A DNA stretch of 33,572 nt from Bacillota bacterium. Its GTDB lineage: Bacteria; Bacillota; Sulfobacillia; Sulfobacillales; Sulfobacillaceae. Position numbers and translations under genes: made by a program. The first letter of the stretch is position 1; every line of letters begins with the position of its first letter. This document shows positions 14,451 through 18,203 of the stretch, in pieces. The DNA is taken from assembly GCA_021784595.1 (NCBI GenBank), contig JAJYHT010000045.1:1-33572 (forward strand). The letters are read 5' to 3'. Below the pieces are notes generated by a model. The model had not been told where the DNA came from, made no database searches, and worked only from the letters and a program-made list of their open reading frames with translations.

Positions 14451-15371
14451 ATGGATACTCTTGCAGTGATTGGTACTTTGGACGACACCTGGCAGGAAAA
14501 AATCCGTCAGTGCCGACCCGATTTAAACGTCTTATTCTATAACACCGCTCATGACTTGGCGGCCTTGCCCGATCCGCGGATCACCATCCTGGCTGCTGGT
14601 GGAGGTCGGGCTACAGGACTTTTATGGCCCTTGCTGCCTAACCTGAGATGGATCCAAACCTGGTCGGCGGGCGTTGATGGATTAATCGAGTCCCTTCCCG
14701 ACCATGTCACCCTGACCACGATGAAAGGGCTCGGCCAACAAACCGTGGCAGAACATGCGATGGCTCTTCTGTTGTCCTTAACCCGCATTTTGCCAAACAG
14801 CGCAACAACCGAGCGGCGCTGTCAAGTACCACTTCCATCCTTGGCCGGTCTTACCCAAGTAATTGTGGGGTATGGCCATATCGGGCAAGAAATCGGACGT
14901 CTCAGCGAAGCTTTCGGCATGAAAGTGATGGGTGTACGCAATCACCCCCAGCCTGGACAGTGGGCTCTGTCCGACCTGACCCAGTTGCTGCCGCTAGCTG
15001 ACGTCGTCACCTTGGCATGCCCGCTTACCGAAGCCACATATCGCCTCATGAATGAAAAATCCTTATCGCTGCTTGGTCCGAATGCCTTTCTTATCAACAT
15101 TGCCCGGGCTGAAGTTGTTGATCAAGAAGCCTTGCTGCACGTTCTTAAAACGCGCGCAATCGGGGGCGCGGGGCTTGATGTCACCACGCCCGAGCCGTTG
15201 CCGGCCGGCCATCCCTTGCTGCAGCTGCCAAACGTGGTCGTCACACCCCATGTGGCCGGAAATTTGCCCGATTATATGCAGAGAGCTGCTGCAATTCTTA
15301 TTCAAAACCTGGAAAACGATTTCAATGGTCGACCGCTGTTGAATCCGGCAAGGCGGAACGATGGCTACTAG
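14451..15371 (+). CDS. D-isomer-specific 2-hydroxyacid dehydrogenase
   Basis: This 306-aa NAD(P)-dependent oxidoreductase interconverts a 2-oxoacid and a D-2-hydroxyacid in the cytoplasm. The nucleotide fold has G140-Y-G-H-I-G145. The catalytic triad is complete: R219 in NIARAEVVDQ, E248 in DVTTPEP and H267 in TPHVAG. Substrate (phosphoglycerate, glyoxylate, lactate and others) cannot be told apart from these motifs. The protein is shorter than SerA and lacks an ACT domain. The ATG at 14451 has GAAGGGG upstream; an ATG at 14443 is out of frame. Its last 4 bp overlap the convergent ABC permease gene. Confidence 0.9.
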   Translation: MDTLAVIGTLDDTWQEKIRQCRPDLNVLFYNTAHDLAALPDPRITILAAGGGRATGLLWPLLPNLRWIQTWSAGVDGLIESLPDHVTLTTMKGLGQQTVAEHAMALLLSLTRILPNSATTERRCQVPLPSLAGLTQVIVGYGHIGQEIGRLSEAFGMKVMGVRNHPQPGQWALSDLTQLLPLADVVTLACPLTEATYRLMNEKSLSLLGPNAFLINIARAEVVDQEALLHVLKTRAIGGAGLDVTTPEPLPAGHPLLQLPNVVVTPHVAGNLPDYMQRAAAILIQNLENDFNGRPLLNPARRNDGY

Positions 15372-16177
15372 CCGTTTCGCTTTAAGGTGCCGCGATGCAT
15401 CGCCCATCGCTCCGCGCTCGTAAAAATCCATAATCCCAACGGCACCAGGACGAGTCCTGACAACAGCAATTCCAAAGATATGCCCGTTACCGACCCAATT
15501 GATCGTCCATTCAAAATGGCTCCACGGGAAGCTTCTAAAGTGTATGTTGCTGGCGACGCCCAGGAAAACCATCTAAGCCAAACCGGCAATACTGAGACAG
15601 GATAATAGACGCCGGACACCAAGAGCAGCACTCCTTGGATAATTTGCGTCGCTTGGGCACCTCGCTCAGTGGACAACAGGGGCAATACGGCGCCCATTAA
15701 CCCCAAGCCGATAAATGGCAGCACCGAACCACCCAGCACTACGAGAGCACCCCACCAGTCAGCATGGGCAATCGAGACGTGAAAGAACACCATGATAGCC
15801 AATAAGACAACCGCAGTGCGCAGCAAGCCATAGAGCACCGCGTAGGTGCACACGCCAAAAAGATAGGTCAGTCGATGGATCGGGGCCATAAAGCTGTACT
15901 CGATCGTCCCCTCCCATCGTTCCCAGGAAACTGCATTGGCGATCTCTTGAAATAAAATGGATAAGAAGTTCCACAATAACGCTCCGATAGCCAAATAGAC
16001 CACAGTATGCGCCCTCTGTGCCGCCGGAAGGGACAAGCCAATCAGTCCTATCGTCAAAGTATTAATAATGTTGTAAAACAGAAAAACGACTTCCCATCCT
16101 AAGTATCGGCGGATTAGGTGGAAATTTCGTCGGACAATGGAACCCAAAGCTCTGGCTTCACGTTCAACAACCAACAT
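15368..16177 (-). CDS. ABC-2 type transporter permease
   Basis: This 269-aa protein has six hydrophobic segments and the ABC-2 layout. The amphipathic start is followed by IRRYLGWEVVFLFYN, the middle has WERWEGTIEYSFMAP (the coupling region typical of DrrB/NodJ-like exporters), and near the end LLLVSGVYYPVSVLPVWLRW. It should dimerise and pair with the ATPase at 16222-17040 to export a lipid, drug or polymer. The ATG at 16177 has AGGAG eight bases upstream; a TTG three bases further up is possible. The gap to the ATPase stop is 44 bp, same strand. Confidence 0.85.
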   Translation of the reverse strand: MLVVEREARALGSIVRRNFHLIRRYLGWEVVFLFYNIINTLTIGLIGLSLPAAQRAHTVVYLAIGALLWNFLSILFQEIANAVSWERWEGTIEYSFMAPIHRLTYLFGVCTYAVLYGLLRTAVVLLAIMVFFHVSIAHADWWGALVVLGGSVLPFIGLGLMGAVLPLLSTERGAQATQIIQGVLLLVSGVYYPVSVLPVWLRWFSWASPATYTLEASRGAILNGRSIGSVTGISLELLLSGLVLVPLGLWIFTSAERWAMHRGTLKRNG

Positions 16178-16221
16178 CAATTTGGCTCCTGCCTTCCATT
16201 TTTGATTTTCTTCTCCACATT

Positions 16222-17040
16222 CTACGAAGGTTCCTCATCGCTCAGTAAGTCCCGGCCGGTCAAGCGAAAAAATGCATACTCCAATCCTTGCCCTTCACCC
16301 CATTGGGAAATCAGATCTGCTGGAGCGGCGTTGGCTACAAATTTTCCTAGGTGAATAATTGCAATCTGATCACACAGCCTTTCGGCTTCTACCATGTCAT
16401 GGGTTGAAATTAATATCGTGGCATCATGATCCGCTCTGACTTGCAAAATAAAGTCCTGCACTTCCCGCCGCGAGGTTGGATCTAGGCCCGTAGTCGGTTC
16501 ATCCAACAGCATAAGATTGGGCGAGGTTAATAAAGCCCGGGCAATGGCGATTTTTTGTTGTTGTCCACGGGACAAATTCTCTAGCGGAATGACCAGTTTG
16601 GCCCGAGGCAAGGAAAGCCGCTCAAGAATGCGCGTAGCCTCTTGTTGGGCGGCGCGGTTGGGTATTCCATAAAGTCCGGCGGCATACGCCAGATTTTCTC
16701 GGGCCGTAAGTTTTTTAAAAAAGCTGGCCTCTACGGACACCCGATTAATCAGTCTGCGCACAGCCATACGGTTTTTCATCACATCCATCCCAAATATCTC
16801 AATACTGCCTTGATCGGGGATTAACAACGTGGCCATCATGCGAATCAAGGTCGATTTGCCTGAACCGTTCGGCCCTAGCACGCCAAGAATTTGATTGCGT
16901 GGCAAAATCAAATTAATTCCTTGCACAGCCTTTGTTTGGGAAACCACGCGATTCCATCCCTCCCGCCTGACATTACGAAAGGTTTTCCACAAATCGTGGC
17001 ACTCGAGAGCTGGTATTAGACCGAGCGCATTGCTACTCAC
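16222..17040 (-). CDS. ABC transporter ATP-binding protein (ABC-2 exporter)
   Basis: The frame opens at 17133, but that start lies inside a terminator hairpin. The GTG at 17040 has AGGGGAG seven bases upstream and gives 272 aa. Walker A is GPNGSGKST (56-64), the signature is LSRGQ (a variant of LSGGQ), Walker B is LMLLDEPTTGLDP, and the switch His is in ISTHDM. The order fits the DrrA/NatA-like branch that drives ABC-2 permeases. It is translated before its permease partner. The leader upstream holds a short ORF, a long hairpin and an intrinsic terminator, so expression is probably controlled by attenuation. Confidence 0.9.
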   Translation of the reverse strand: MSSNALGLIPALECHDLWKTFRNVRREGWNRVVSQTKAVQGINLILPRNQILGVLGPNGSGKSTLIRMMATLLIPDQGSIEIFGMDVMKNRMAVRRLINRVSVEASFFKKLTARENLAYAAGLYGIPNRAAQQEATRILERLSLPRAKLVIPLENLSRGQQQKIAIARALLTSPNLMLLDEPTTGLDPTSRREVQDFILQVRADHDATILISTHDMVEAERLCDQIAIIHLGKFVANAAPADLISQWGEGQGLEYAFFRLTGRDLLSDEEPS

Positions 17041-17100
17041 AAAATCACTCCCCTGACAAATTACTGTATATGCCCGTTCATACTCCAAAAAACGAGGACA

Positions 17101-17130
17101 AAATAAAACCGACCGGAAGCATCCGGTCGG
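17101..17130 (-). terminator. Intrinsic terminator in the leader of the ABC exporter
   Basis: CCGACCGG (17130-17123) and CCGGTCGG (17116-17109) form a perfect 8-bp stem with a 6-nt loop. It is followed on the minus strand by TTTTATTTT. It lies 68 bases upstream of the GTG of the ATPase and 18 bases after the stop of the 20-codon ORF. There is no longer minus-strand gene before it to terminate. Confidence 0.85.
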
Positions 17131-17178
17131 CATAGGCTGCGCCTTAAACTAGCGAAAAGGCGGAGTCAGCCCATGCCG
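17128..17178 (-). promoter_or_regulatory. Long leader hairpin overlapping the short ORF and the terminator
   Basis: In minus-strand RNA, CGGCATGGGCTG (17178-17167) pairs with CAGCCTATGCCG (17139-17128) over 12 bp with one G-U pair. After a 4-nt bulge, CGCCTT (17162-17157) pairs with AAGGCG (17145-17140). The loop is 11 nt and contains the TAG stop of the short ORF. In plus-strand RNA the G-U pair would be an A-C mismatch, which favours the minus strand. The last three bases (17130-17128) are shared with the terminator stem, so the two structures compete at their edge. Confidence 0.65.
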
Positions 17179-17211
17179 CACGGTGAACGCACTCACATAA
17201 AATTGGCGCAC
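17149..17211 (-). CDS. 20-aa leader peptide candidate upstream of the ABC exporter
   Basis: A GTG at 17211 opens a 20-codon frame that begins MRQFYVSAF, ends LTPPFR, and stops at TAG (17151-17149). The ribosome site GGGGAGGA (17224-17217) is five bases upstream, one of the strongest in the window. The second half of the ORF is the left strand of the hairpin at 17128-17178, so a ribosome moving or pausing on it would open that hairpin. This is the arrangement of leader peptides that control resistance or transport genes by attenuation. Pro-Pro near the end could slow translation. It could instead be an independent small protein. Expression is not shown. Confidence 0.5.
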   Translation of the reverse strand: MRQFYVSAFTVRHGLTPPFR

Positions 17212-17324
17212 GCTGATCCTCCCCTTTCGGTATAATGGTAATATTCAGTAGACCATCCATTGCCATCTTTTGTCAAGCGATTGTCCTCAAAACCGAAAGT
17301 ATTCGGACAAGGCGAAGGAGATAT

Positions 17325-18203
17325 ATGAAACCAGGCAGTGGCCCTGAGGGGGCAGTTATGGCACGTACGCTGGCAGACCATCTAGATTCCACCATCCAAG
17401 AGTTGTCGCTACACGTAGCAGAGAGGTACCAATGGCTATTGCTGCAAACTCTTTATACTGGCTCCAGTCGCCGTCGCGGCTTAGCTAAGCTTCCCATTGA
17501 AGCGAAAAGCCATGGTTTGGATATCGGTACAGGATTTGGCGTGATGGCGATTGAAATGGCTGCAGCTTTTGACTGCTTTGTCGATGGAATTGACCTAGAT
17601 CCCGCCGTCTTAACCTACGCTCAACAAATATCCGCCCCATTGGCGGAAATTCAACCGCGTGTTCACTGGATTCACACCGACATTCATCGCTTGCCCTATG
17701 CGAACCACAGTCAAGACTTCATCACAGCGCGATTTGTGTTGCAGCACATTTCTCATCCTGAAGAGTTGCTACATGAACTATTTAGGGTAGTTCGCCCCGG
17801 AGGTTTCATTTACGTGGAAGACATTGACGATAGCCTGATTCTACAGTATCCCACTCCTCCCCAGTCATGGCAAAACGTGATGGCTCAGTTTGCGCGCTTA
17901 CAAGAGATTCGCGGGGGTGACCGCCAGGTCGGACGCAAGCTCCCGGTCTGGCTAGCCATGGTAGGGTTTTCTGTACAATGGGTACATCCCGAATGGCAGT
18001 CCTCAGTTCACCCGCCTCATGAAAAAGGACCCGCCCTAGAGTGGGAACTGCTGCGGGTTGAAGATGTGTTGCCAGCACTTTATGGCGCGGATCTATTATC
18101 TCCCCCCGAGTGGGAACAAGGACGGGCCGATTTGTTGCGAACCCAGACCAACTGGTCTTTTGAGGGAAACGCCTCACTACAAATTCTCGCCTTCAAGCCT
18201 TAA
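17325..18203 (+). CDS. SAM-dependent methyltransferase (class I)
   Basis: The frame opens at 17235, but ATG 17325 has AAGGAG five bases upstream and gives 292 aa. Motif I is LDIGTGFGVMAIEMA (about 65-79), followed by the acidic GIDLDPAVL and the post-motif FVLQHISHPEELLHELFRVVRPGGFIYVED. This is the Methyltransf_11/25 pattern for small-molecule or quinone-like substrates. The last 90 residues are not recognised and may bind substrate. The gene diverges from the ABC exporter leader and overlaps the convergent epimerase-like gene by 4 bp at the stops. A TATAAT lies near 17230 but without a clear -35 box. Confidence 0.85.
   Translation: MKPGSGPEGAVMARTLADHLDSTIQELSLHVAERYQWLLLQTLYTGSSRRRGLAKLPIEAKSHGLDIGTGFGVMAIEMAAAFDCFVDGIDLDPAVLTYAQQISAPLAEIQPRVHWIHTDIHRLPYANHSQDFITARFVLQHISHPEELLHELFRVVRPGGFIYVEDIDDSLILQYPTPPQSWQNVMAQFARLQEIRGGDRQVGRKLPVWLAMVGFSVQWVHPEWQSSVHPPHEKGPALEWELLRVEDVLPALYGADLLSPPEWEQGRADLLRTQTNWSFEGNASLQILAFKP

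Follow-up and report, generated by a model that had tools for sequence, protein, structure and literature searches.

A probable ribosome-mediated transcription attenuator ahead of a DrrA-like ABC exporter in Sulfobacillaceae, with counterparts in Chloroflexota

We analysed a 33,572-nucleotide stretch of DNA from a Bacillota bacterium of the family Sulfobacillaceae (hereafter the window) and examined the leader that precedes a two-gene ABC exporter operon on its minus strand. Judged from its sequence, this leader is probably a ribosome-mediated transcription attenuator with three RNA states, in which a ribosome held at the start of a short open reading frame (ORF) would switch the exporter on. 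The anatomy of the leader, its conservation, its mutually exclusive complementarities and the compensatory changes within them are observed directly in the sequences compared. More tentatively, it may represent an undescribed attenuator family, present in Bacillota and Chloroflexota and attached to one exporter clade, in which the leader ribosome-binding site (RBS) is itself a switch arm and the ORF end refolds after the first ribosome, shutting off its own initiation; since the ORF end would fold back on its own RBS, such a leader would sense initiation and early elongation per nascent RNA, independently of peptide sequence.

The known cases of drug-type ribosome-mediated attenuation come mostly from Bacillus, Listeria and streptococci. 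If true, the present proposal would extend it to deep-branching acidophiles and Chloroflexi, and would suggest that one unstudied clade of ABC-2 exporters probably responds to ribosome-targeting compounds. With the leader sequence rewritten again and again while its pairing is kept, compensatory mutants offer a direct test of the three-state model.

Anatomy of the leader

On the minus strand, the elements follow one another from 5′ to 3′ as a putative promoter, a Shine-Dalgarno (SD) sequence, a GTG-initiated ORF, a hairpin, a terminator and the ATPase start. The putative sigma70-type promoter (17276-17247), found by eye, consists of TTGACA (17276-17271), an 18-nucleotide spacer and TCTACT (17252-17247), and TTGACA-N18-TCTACT or TCCACT occurs at the equivalent position in two relatives (L012 and L013); we grade it as weak because a consensus scan gave no call there at its threshold. 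The SD, GGGGAGGA (17224-17217), serves a 20-codon ORF (17211-17149) that runs from GTG to TAG and encodes the peptide MRQFYVSAFTVRHGLTPPFR. Wherever a leader was called in a relative, it too follows an SD, and in about 47 relatives a leader ORF of 20-36 codons occupies the equivalent place. The predicted intrinsic terminator (17131-17100), equivalently placed in relatives, reads GCCGACCGGA-TGCT-TCCGGTCGG(T), with a stem of 9-10 bp at 17131-17108 and the T tract TTTTATTTT after it. Between ORF and terminator lies a long hairpin in two parts, 11 bp (17177-17167 with 17139-17129) and 6 bp (17162-17157 with 17145-17140), whose loop holds the TAG stop of the leader ORF and which has about three bases (17131-17129) in common with the terminator, or six with an internal-loop extension. 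The GTG start of the ATPase (17040) is 68 bases past the terminator stem. By prediction, then, the gene to be regulated is preceded by a small ORF that has a ribosome site to itself, and an intrinsic terminator separates the two.

Most of this layout had been described in an earlier, sequence-only reading of the window: the ribosome site, the 20-codon ORF with its stop in the hairpin loop, the three shared bases and the ATPase start 68 bases on were all recovered here. It was also right about the two-part form of the hairpin and about the terminator with its T tract, but its lengths of 18 bp and 8 bp give way to our counts of 11 + 6 bp and 9-10 bp, respectively.

The predicted folding energy of the 146-nucleotide leader is -65.1 kcal/mol; 200 shuffles averaged -46.2 ± 3.8 kcal/mol, and none was as low (z = -5.0). 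A scan of both strands of the window for an SD, an ORF of 14-45 codons, a terminator and pairing between the SD and the ORF end returned exactly one site. An Rfam covariance-model search matched no family to the leader at gathering score; its only hits were RNase P and tRNA, elsewhere in one of the loci (L105).

Three segments are named below according to their pairing. R1 (17229-17208) comprises the SD and start-codon region and would form, by its duplex with R2, the 5′ arm of an anti-antiterminator (AAT). R2 (17178-17152) is the end of the leader ORF and may pair with either R1 or R3. R3 (17145-17128), which continues into the left arm of the terminator, would be the 3′ arm of the antiterminator.

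Distribution among relatives

Of 34 genomes from the same family, 20 encode an orthologue of the ATPase. In 14 of these 20, counting the window, the equivalent place is occupied by a leader ORF of 20-25 codons preceded by an SD. Among the relatives compared are Sulfobacillus benefaciens AMDSBA4 (L050) and S. harzensis DSM 109850 (L059). Some relatives (g5, g7 and g2) have no recognisable leader. Among orthologues from GTDB genomes (48-80% identity), a leader and a terminator occur in other families of the order and the class and also in Chloroflexota, including Thermoflexales and Anaerolineae. The gap from stop codon to terminator is 11-26 nucleotides in 44 of 47 leaders, with a median of 17 and an interquartile range of 15-18.

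A blind scan, covering both strands of 777,345 bp, required an SD, an ORF of 14-45 codons, an R1:R2 duplex of -15 kcal/mol or lower and a terminator 3-50 nucleotides past the stop. It yielded 43 matches within 600 nucleotides upstream of orthologous ATPases, some loci being counted under two start codons, and three elsewhere; the pairing criterion barely filtered, as 46 of 53 candidates with ORF and terminator satisfied it. The on-target matches come from Chloroflexota as well as from Sulfobacillaceae and other Bacillota. Within the window's own genome, the six closest paralogue loci (L002-L007) gave no match and a further one (L008) a single stray match, and no paralogous leader was found elsewhere in the window's genome. 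Rows labelled as having the leader cluster on the ATPase tree, where the label changes 13 times, compared with 29 for shuffled labels; losses are over-counted in this figure because several rows scored as lacking the leader have a terminator and may hide a missed one. The earlier suggestion of ribosome-mediated attenuation of the exporter is well supported in that leader, alternative pairings and terminator are kept upstream of orthologous ATPases across phyla.

Two competing helices

In the window, pairing of R2 with the segment from the stop codon to the terminator loop is predicted at -37.0 kcal/mol (z = -4.9), and R2:R3 z values range from -2.3 to -5.4 in its close relatives. When the window is compared with the five sequences closest to it, both sides of three R2:R3 pairs have changed; four of 500 shuffles reached the resulting covariation score, and no slid version did. 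The sequence-only reading had proposed to look in relatives for compensatory changes and for conserved peptide residues: the former appeared in this long hairpin, the latter did not. Taken over all lineages the antiterminator signal is weaker (mean z -1.5), and the pairing is not significant, as groups, in the Sulfobacillaceae genera g11 and g3 and in genus g14 of family f2. The R2:R3 helix would exclude the terminator by base overlap, in the window partially; because the core hairpin shares only three bases with the terminator (six with the internal-loop extension), readthrough may be partial or leaky. The long hairpin could coexist with a shortened terminator, and the view that it acts as the switch by itself is not supported.

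The switch would need a second helix, R1:R2, which was overlooked in the first reading and competes with the long hairpin. R1, with the SD and start codon of the leader, can base-pair with R2 at the ORF end; in the window this duplex is predicted at -29.8 kcal/mol, a value that 3% of shuffles reached. The same complementarity is present in all 14 Sulfobacillaceae leaders, at -16.7 to -31.6 kcal/mol. Compared with dinucleotide shuffles, the mean z is -2.46 over 47 leaders (t-test over 13 lineage groups, p = 3e-5), a set partly selected by the energy filter, which the 14 family leaders were not; a held-out Anaerolineae set called without R1:R2, in which a few loci of the larger set recur, has a mean z of -1.9 (n = 19). 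In most leaders R1 also pairs more strongly with its own R2 than with an R2 swapped in from another lineage. Across lineages the sequence is rewritten and the complementarity kept, with the start codon inside the helix in many. Among the six closest sequences the AAT pairs hardly vary, apart from a shift by one base in g6; covariation of this helix therefore rests on the wider comparisons. By its predicted pairing, R1:R2 is an anti-antiterminator that would exclude the antiterminator.

Covarying alternative structures as strong as these, together with a peptide free of coding constraint (see below), would also be expected of a riboswitch or an RNA-binding-protein attenuator, in which a ligand or protein selects the helix and the short ORF is incidental. 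Such a reading accounts poorly for the SD, the open frame and the fixed distance from stop to terminator, which recur in lineages that have no sequence in common, or for a helix arm that is the ribosome site itself; moreover, the leaders share no aptamer-like core, and Rfam returned no match. We consider it unlikely.

Folding models of the switch

At equilibrium, the window RNA prefers R2:R3 together with a trimmed 7-bp terminator, and the modelled lower terminator stem is weak both without a ribosome (0.12) and with a ribosome at the stop (0.02); in the window, the OFF state would hence require AAT formation to precede the synthesis of R3. When ribosomes were represented as masks, the terminator averaged 0.82 in free RNA, 0.65 with a ribosome at the start and 0.86 with one at the stop. 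This is the predicted direction on average, but not in the window itself nor in every lineage, and we accordingly did not take equilibrium folding with masks as proof of the switch. In models of nascent-RNA folding, a ribosome at the start codon raised the downstream pairing of R2 over that of free RNA in 35 cases and lowered it in two, whereas a terminating ribosome removed most of it; the comparison is partly circular because masking R1 frees R2.

Selection on the RNA rather than on the peptide

Twelve of the 14 Sulfobacillaceae leaders terminate in GSPPxx, LTPPxx or TLPxx, and many Chloroflexi leaders in RSAPxxx, directly before the stop. These endings bear a superficial likeness to the Arg/Ser/Ala/Pro-rich ends of leader or upstream ORFs that encode RAPP-type arrest peptides (PMC10951233), and favour an attenuator in which a C-terminal GSPP, LTPP or RSAP stalls the ribosome as RAPP or polyproline sequences do, the stall or its drug dependence setting readthrough. 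The underlying nucleotides argue instead for conservation at the RNA level. In Chloroflexi leaders with RSAP or RSAS, the Ser codon is invariably AGT and the Ala codon invariably GCG; the conserved string GTGCGCC, which pairs with R1 (GGCGCA/GCGCAC) and with the left arm of the terminator, falls in a different frame in two leaders (L155 and L172), where it encodes VRP. Differences between close pairs number 113, 95 and 108 at codon positions 1, 2 and 3. With codon positions so evenly hit and the frame of GTGCGCC varying, no selection on the peptide is visible, and among the leaders compared we found no conserved C-terminal motif under amino-acid selection. In addition, A132S is among the non-stalling variants of the RAPP peptide ApdP (PMC10951233).

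A specific or drug-specific arrest peptide is not supported by leaders that lack coding constraint and whose motif changes frame. The reading based on GSPP and RSAP was dropped on three grounds, namely invariant third codon positions, a frame-shifted motif and even differences over codon positions, and we regard it as decidedly unlikely; the earlier proposal that pausing on the peptide decides readthrough is likewise not supported. What is kept is the SD, the open frame and a stop 11-26 nucleotides ahead of the terminator, a set that fits a sensor of ribosome occupancy. On these comparisons, the leader more likely senses ribosomes detained at its start, or close to it, than encodes a drug-specific stalling peptide.

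An amino-acid attenuator of the trp/his type, in which starvation stalls the ribosome on regulatory codons, would share the overall anatomy of leader ORF, alternative hairpins and terminator, but the leaders have no run of codons for a single amino acid in common and the downstream genes encode an exporter rather than biosynthetic enzymes, making it very improbable. Equally hard to credit is a constitutive partial terminator whose sole effect is to reduce exporter expression, without regulation: it would suit the lack of a known inducer and the g5, g7 and g2 relatives without a recognisable leader, yet it would have no use for R1:R2 and R2:R3 pairing that exceeds what shuffles and swaps give.

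Proposed mechanism

The attenuator that we favour would work as follows. With no ribosome on the leader, R2 would pair with R1 and hide the leader RBS, leaving R3 and the terminator free, so that transcription would stop near 17100. When a ribosome completes the leader, it would reach a stop codon 17 nucleotides ahead of the terminator and cover R2, and the terminator would again form. When a ribosome is held at the start codon or within about the first four to eight codons, R1 would be masked and R2 freed to pair with R3 and the left arm of the terminator; RNA polymerase would then read on and the exporter would be made. It follows from this three-state model that the quantity sensed would be a ribosome slowed or blocked at the leader start, most plausibly by a translation inhibitor. 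Termination and antitermination in the cell, ribosome occupancy of the leader, the nature of the inducer and drug export are what we infer from the pairings and the gene context.

Relation to known attenuators

By its predicted pairings, the leader follows the anti-antiterminator/antiterminator/terminator logic of vmlR and bmrB, of which it would be a widely distributed new case on an uncharacterised clade of ABC-2 exporters. The vmlR leader of Bacillus subtilis (PMC9226507) similarly has a short uORF within an AAT hairpin, an alternative antiterminator and an intrinsic terminator ahead of an ABC-type resistance gene. There, a ribosome held at the uORF start blocks the AAT, natural uORF variants still function, and uORF translation, AAT hairpin and terminator were tested by mutation (PMC9226507). 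In vmlR, however, the uORF has three codons and the SD is single-stranded before SL-1 (PMC9226507), whereas here the ORF has 20-36 codons and the SD and start codon make up the AAT arm; the target also differs, being an ABC-F protein in vmlR and here, as predicted from sequence, a two-gene ABC-2 exporter. The bmrB leader of bmrCD, also from B. subtilis (PMC4191407), combines a leader ORF and predicted AAT, antiterminator and terminator with a multidrug ABC exporter operon; leader and terminator were tested experimentally and the function of the AAT was left open by the authors (PMC4191407). Its terminator lies inside the 162-bp leader ORF (PMC4191407), in contrast to about 17 nucleotides past the stop here, and BmrCD is an ABC exporter of another kind.

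Predicted attenuators with antiterminators upstream of ABC transporters were also described as ABC-leaders by Naville and Gautheret in 2010 (PMC2965389), but the five cases shown there come from Gammaproteobacteria, lactobacilli and other Firmicutes, with no leader ORF described, and the main text names neither Sulfobacillus nor Chloroflexi (PMC2965389). RAPP-type leaders differ in that the motif shared here is one of RNA, variable in frame, within an unconstrained peptide. We found no report of the present element in the literature available as open-access full text.

Exporter operon and its neighbourhood

The first gene of the operon (17040-16222, minus strand; GTG start, SD AGGGGAG) encodes a DrrA-like ABC exporter ATPase (Pfam ABC_tran, 5e-32) whose best NCBIfam match is drrA at 6e-67, under that model's cut-off, and which is the single orthologue within its own genome. 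The second (16180-15368, minus strand) encodes an ABC-2 type permease (Pfam ABC2_membrane, 9e-18). A PDB search returned no relative close enough to name the exporter's substrate.

A divergent methyltransferase gene lies on the plus strand (17235-18203). Its longest ORF begins at 17235, within the leader promoter region, but translation of the conserved protein probably begins further in, at the ATG at 17325 or 17358. The order of divergent methyltransferase, exporter and convergent 2-hydroxyacid dehydrogenase is apparently kept between the window (14451-18203) and two relatives (L050 and L053), as compared by ORF size and strand and with the dehydrogenase confirmed by Pfam in L053. In S. harzensis (L059), the exporter is flanked by MFS transporters instead.

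Further observations concern other loci. In class relatives of family f24 (L070-L082), the terminator is near-identical across species (GGCCCGGYCGGTCAG..CTGACCGACCGGGCC) and the leader peptide variable. Four Alicyclobacillus loci (L101, L107, L115 and L117) have a terminator upstream of the ATPase with arms of the CCRTGG/CCACGG type, and the leader finder called no acceptable ORF at the right place in them; they may possibly hold a diverged version of the leader. The ATPase match in one genus g3 locus (L025) carries one in-frame TGA. Six loci (L092, L093, L095, L097, L102 and L108) have a second, tandem hairpin, GGCCGTGG..CCACGGCC, between the leader terminator and the ATPase, and such a hairpin is found in many Chloroflexi loci, often with a T run of its own.
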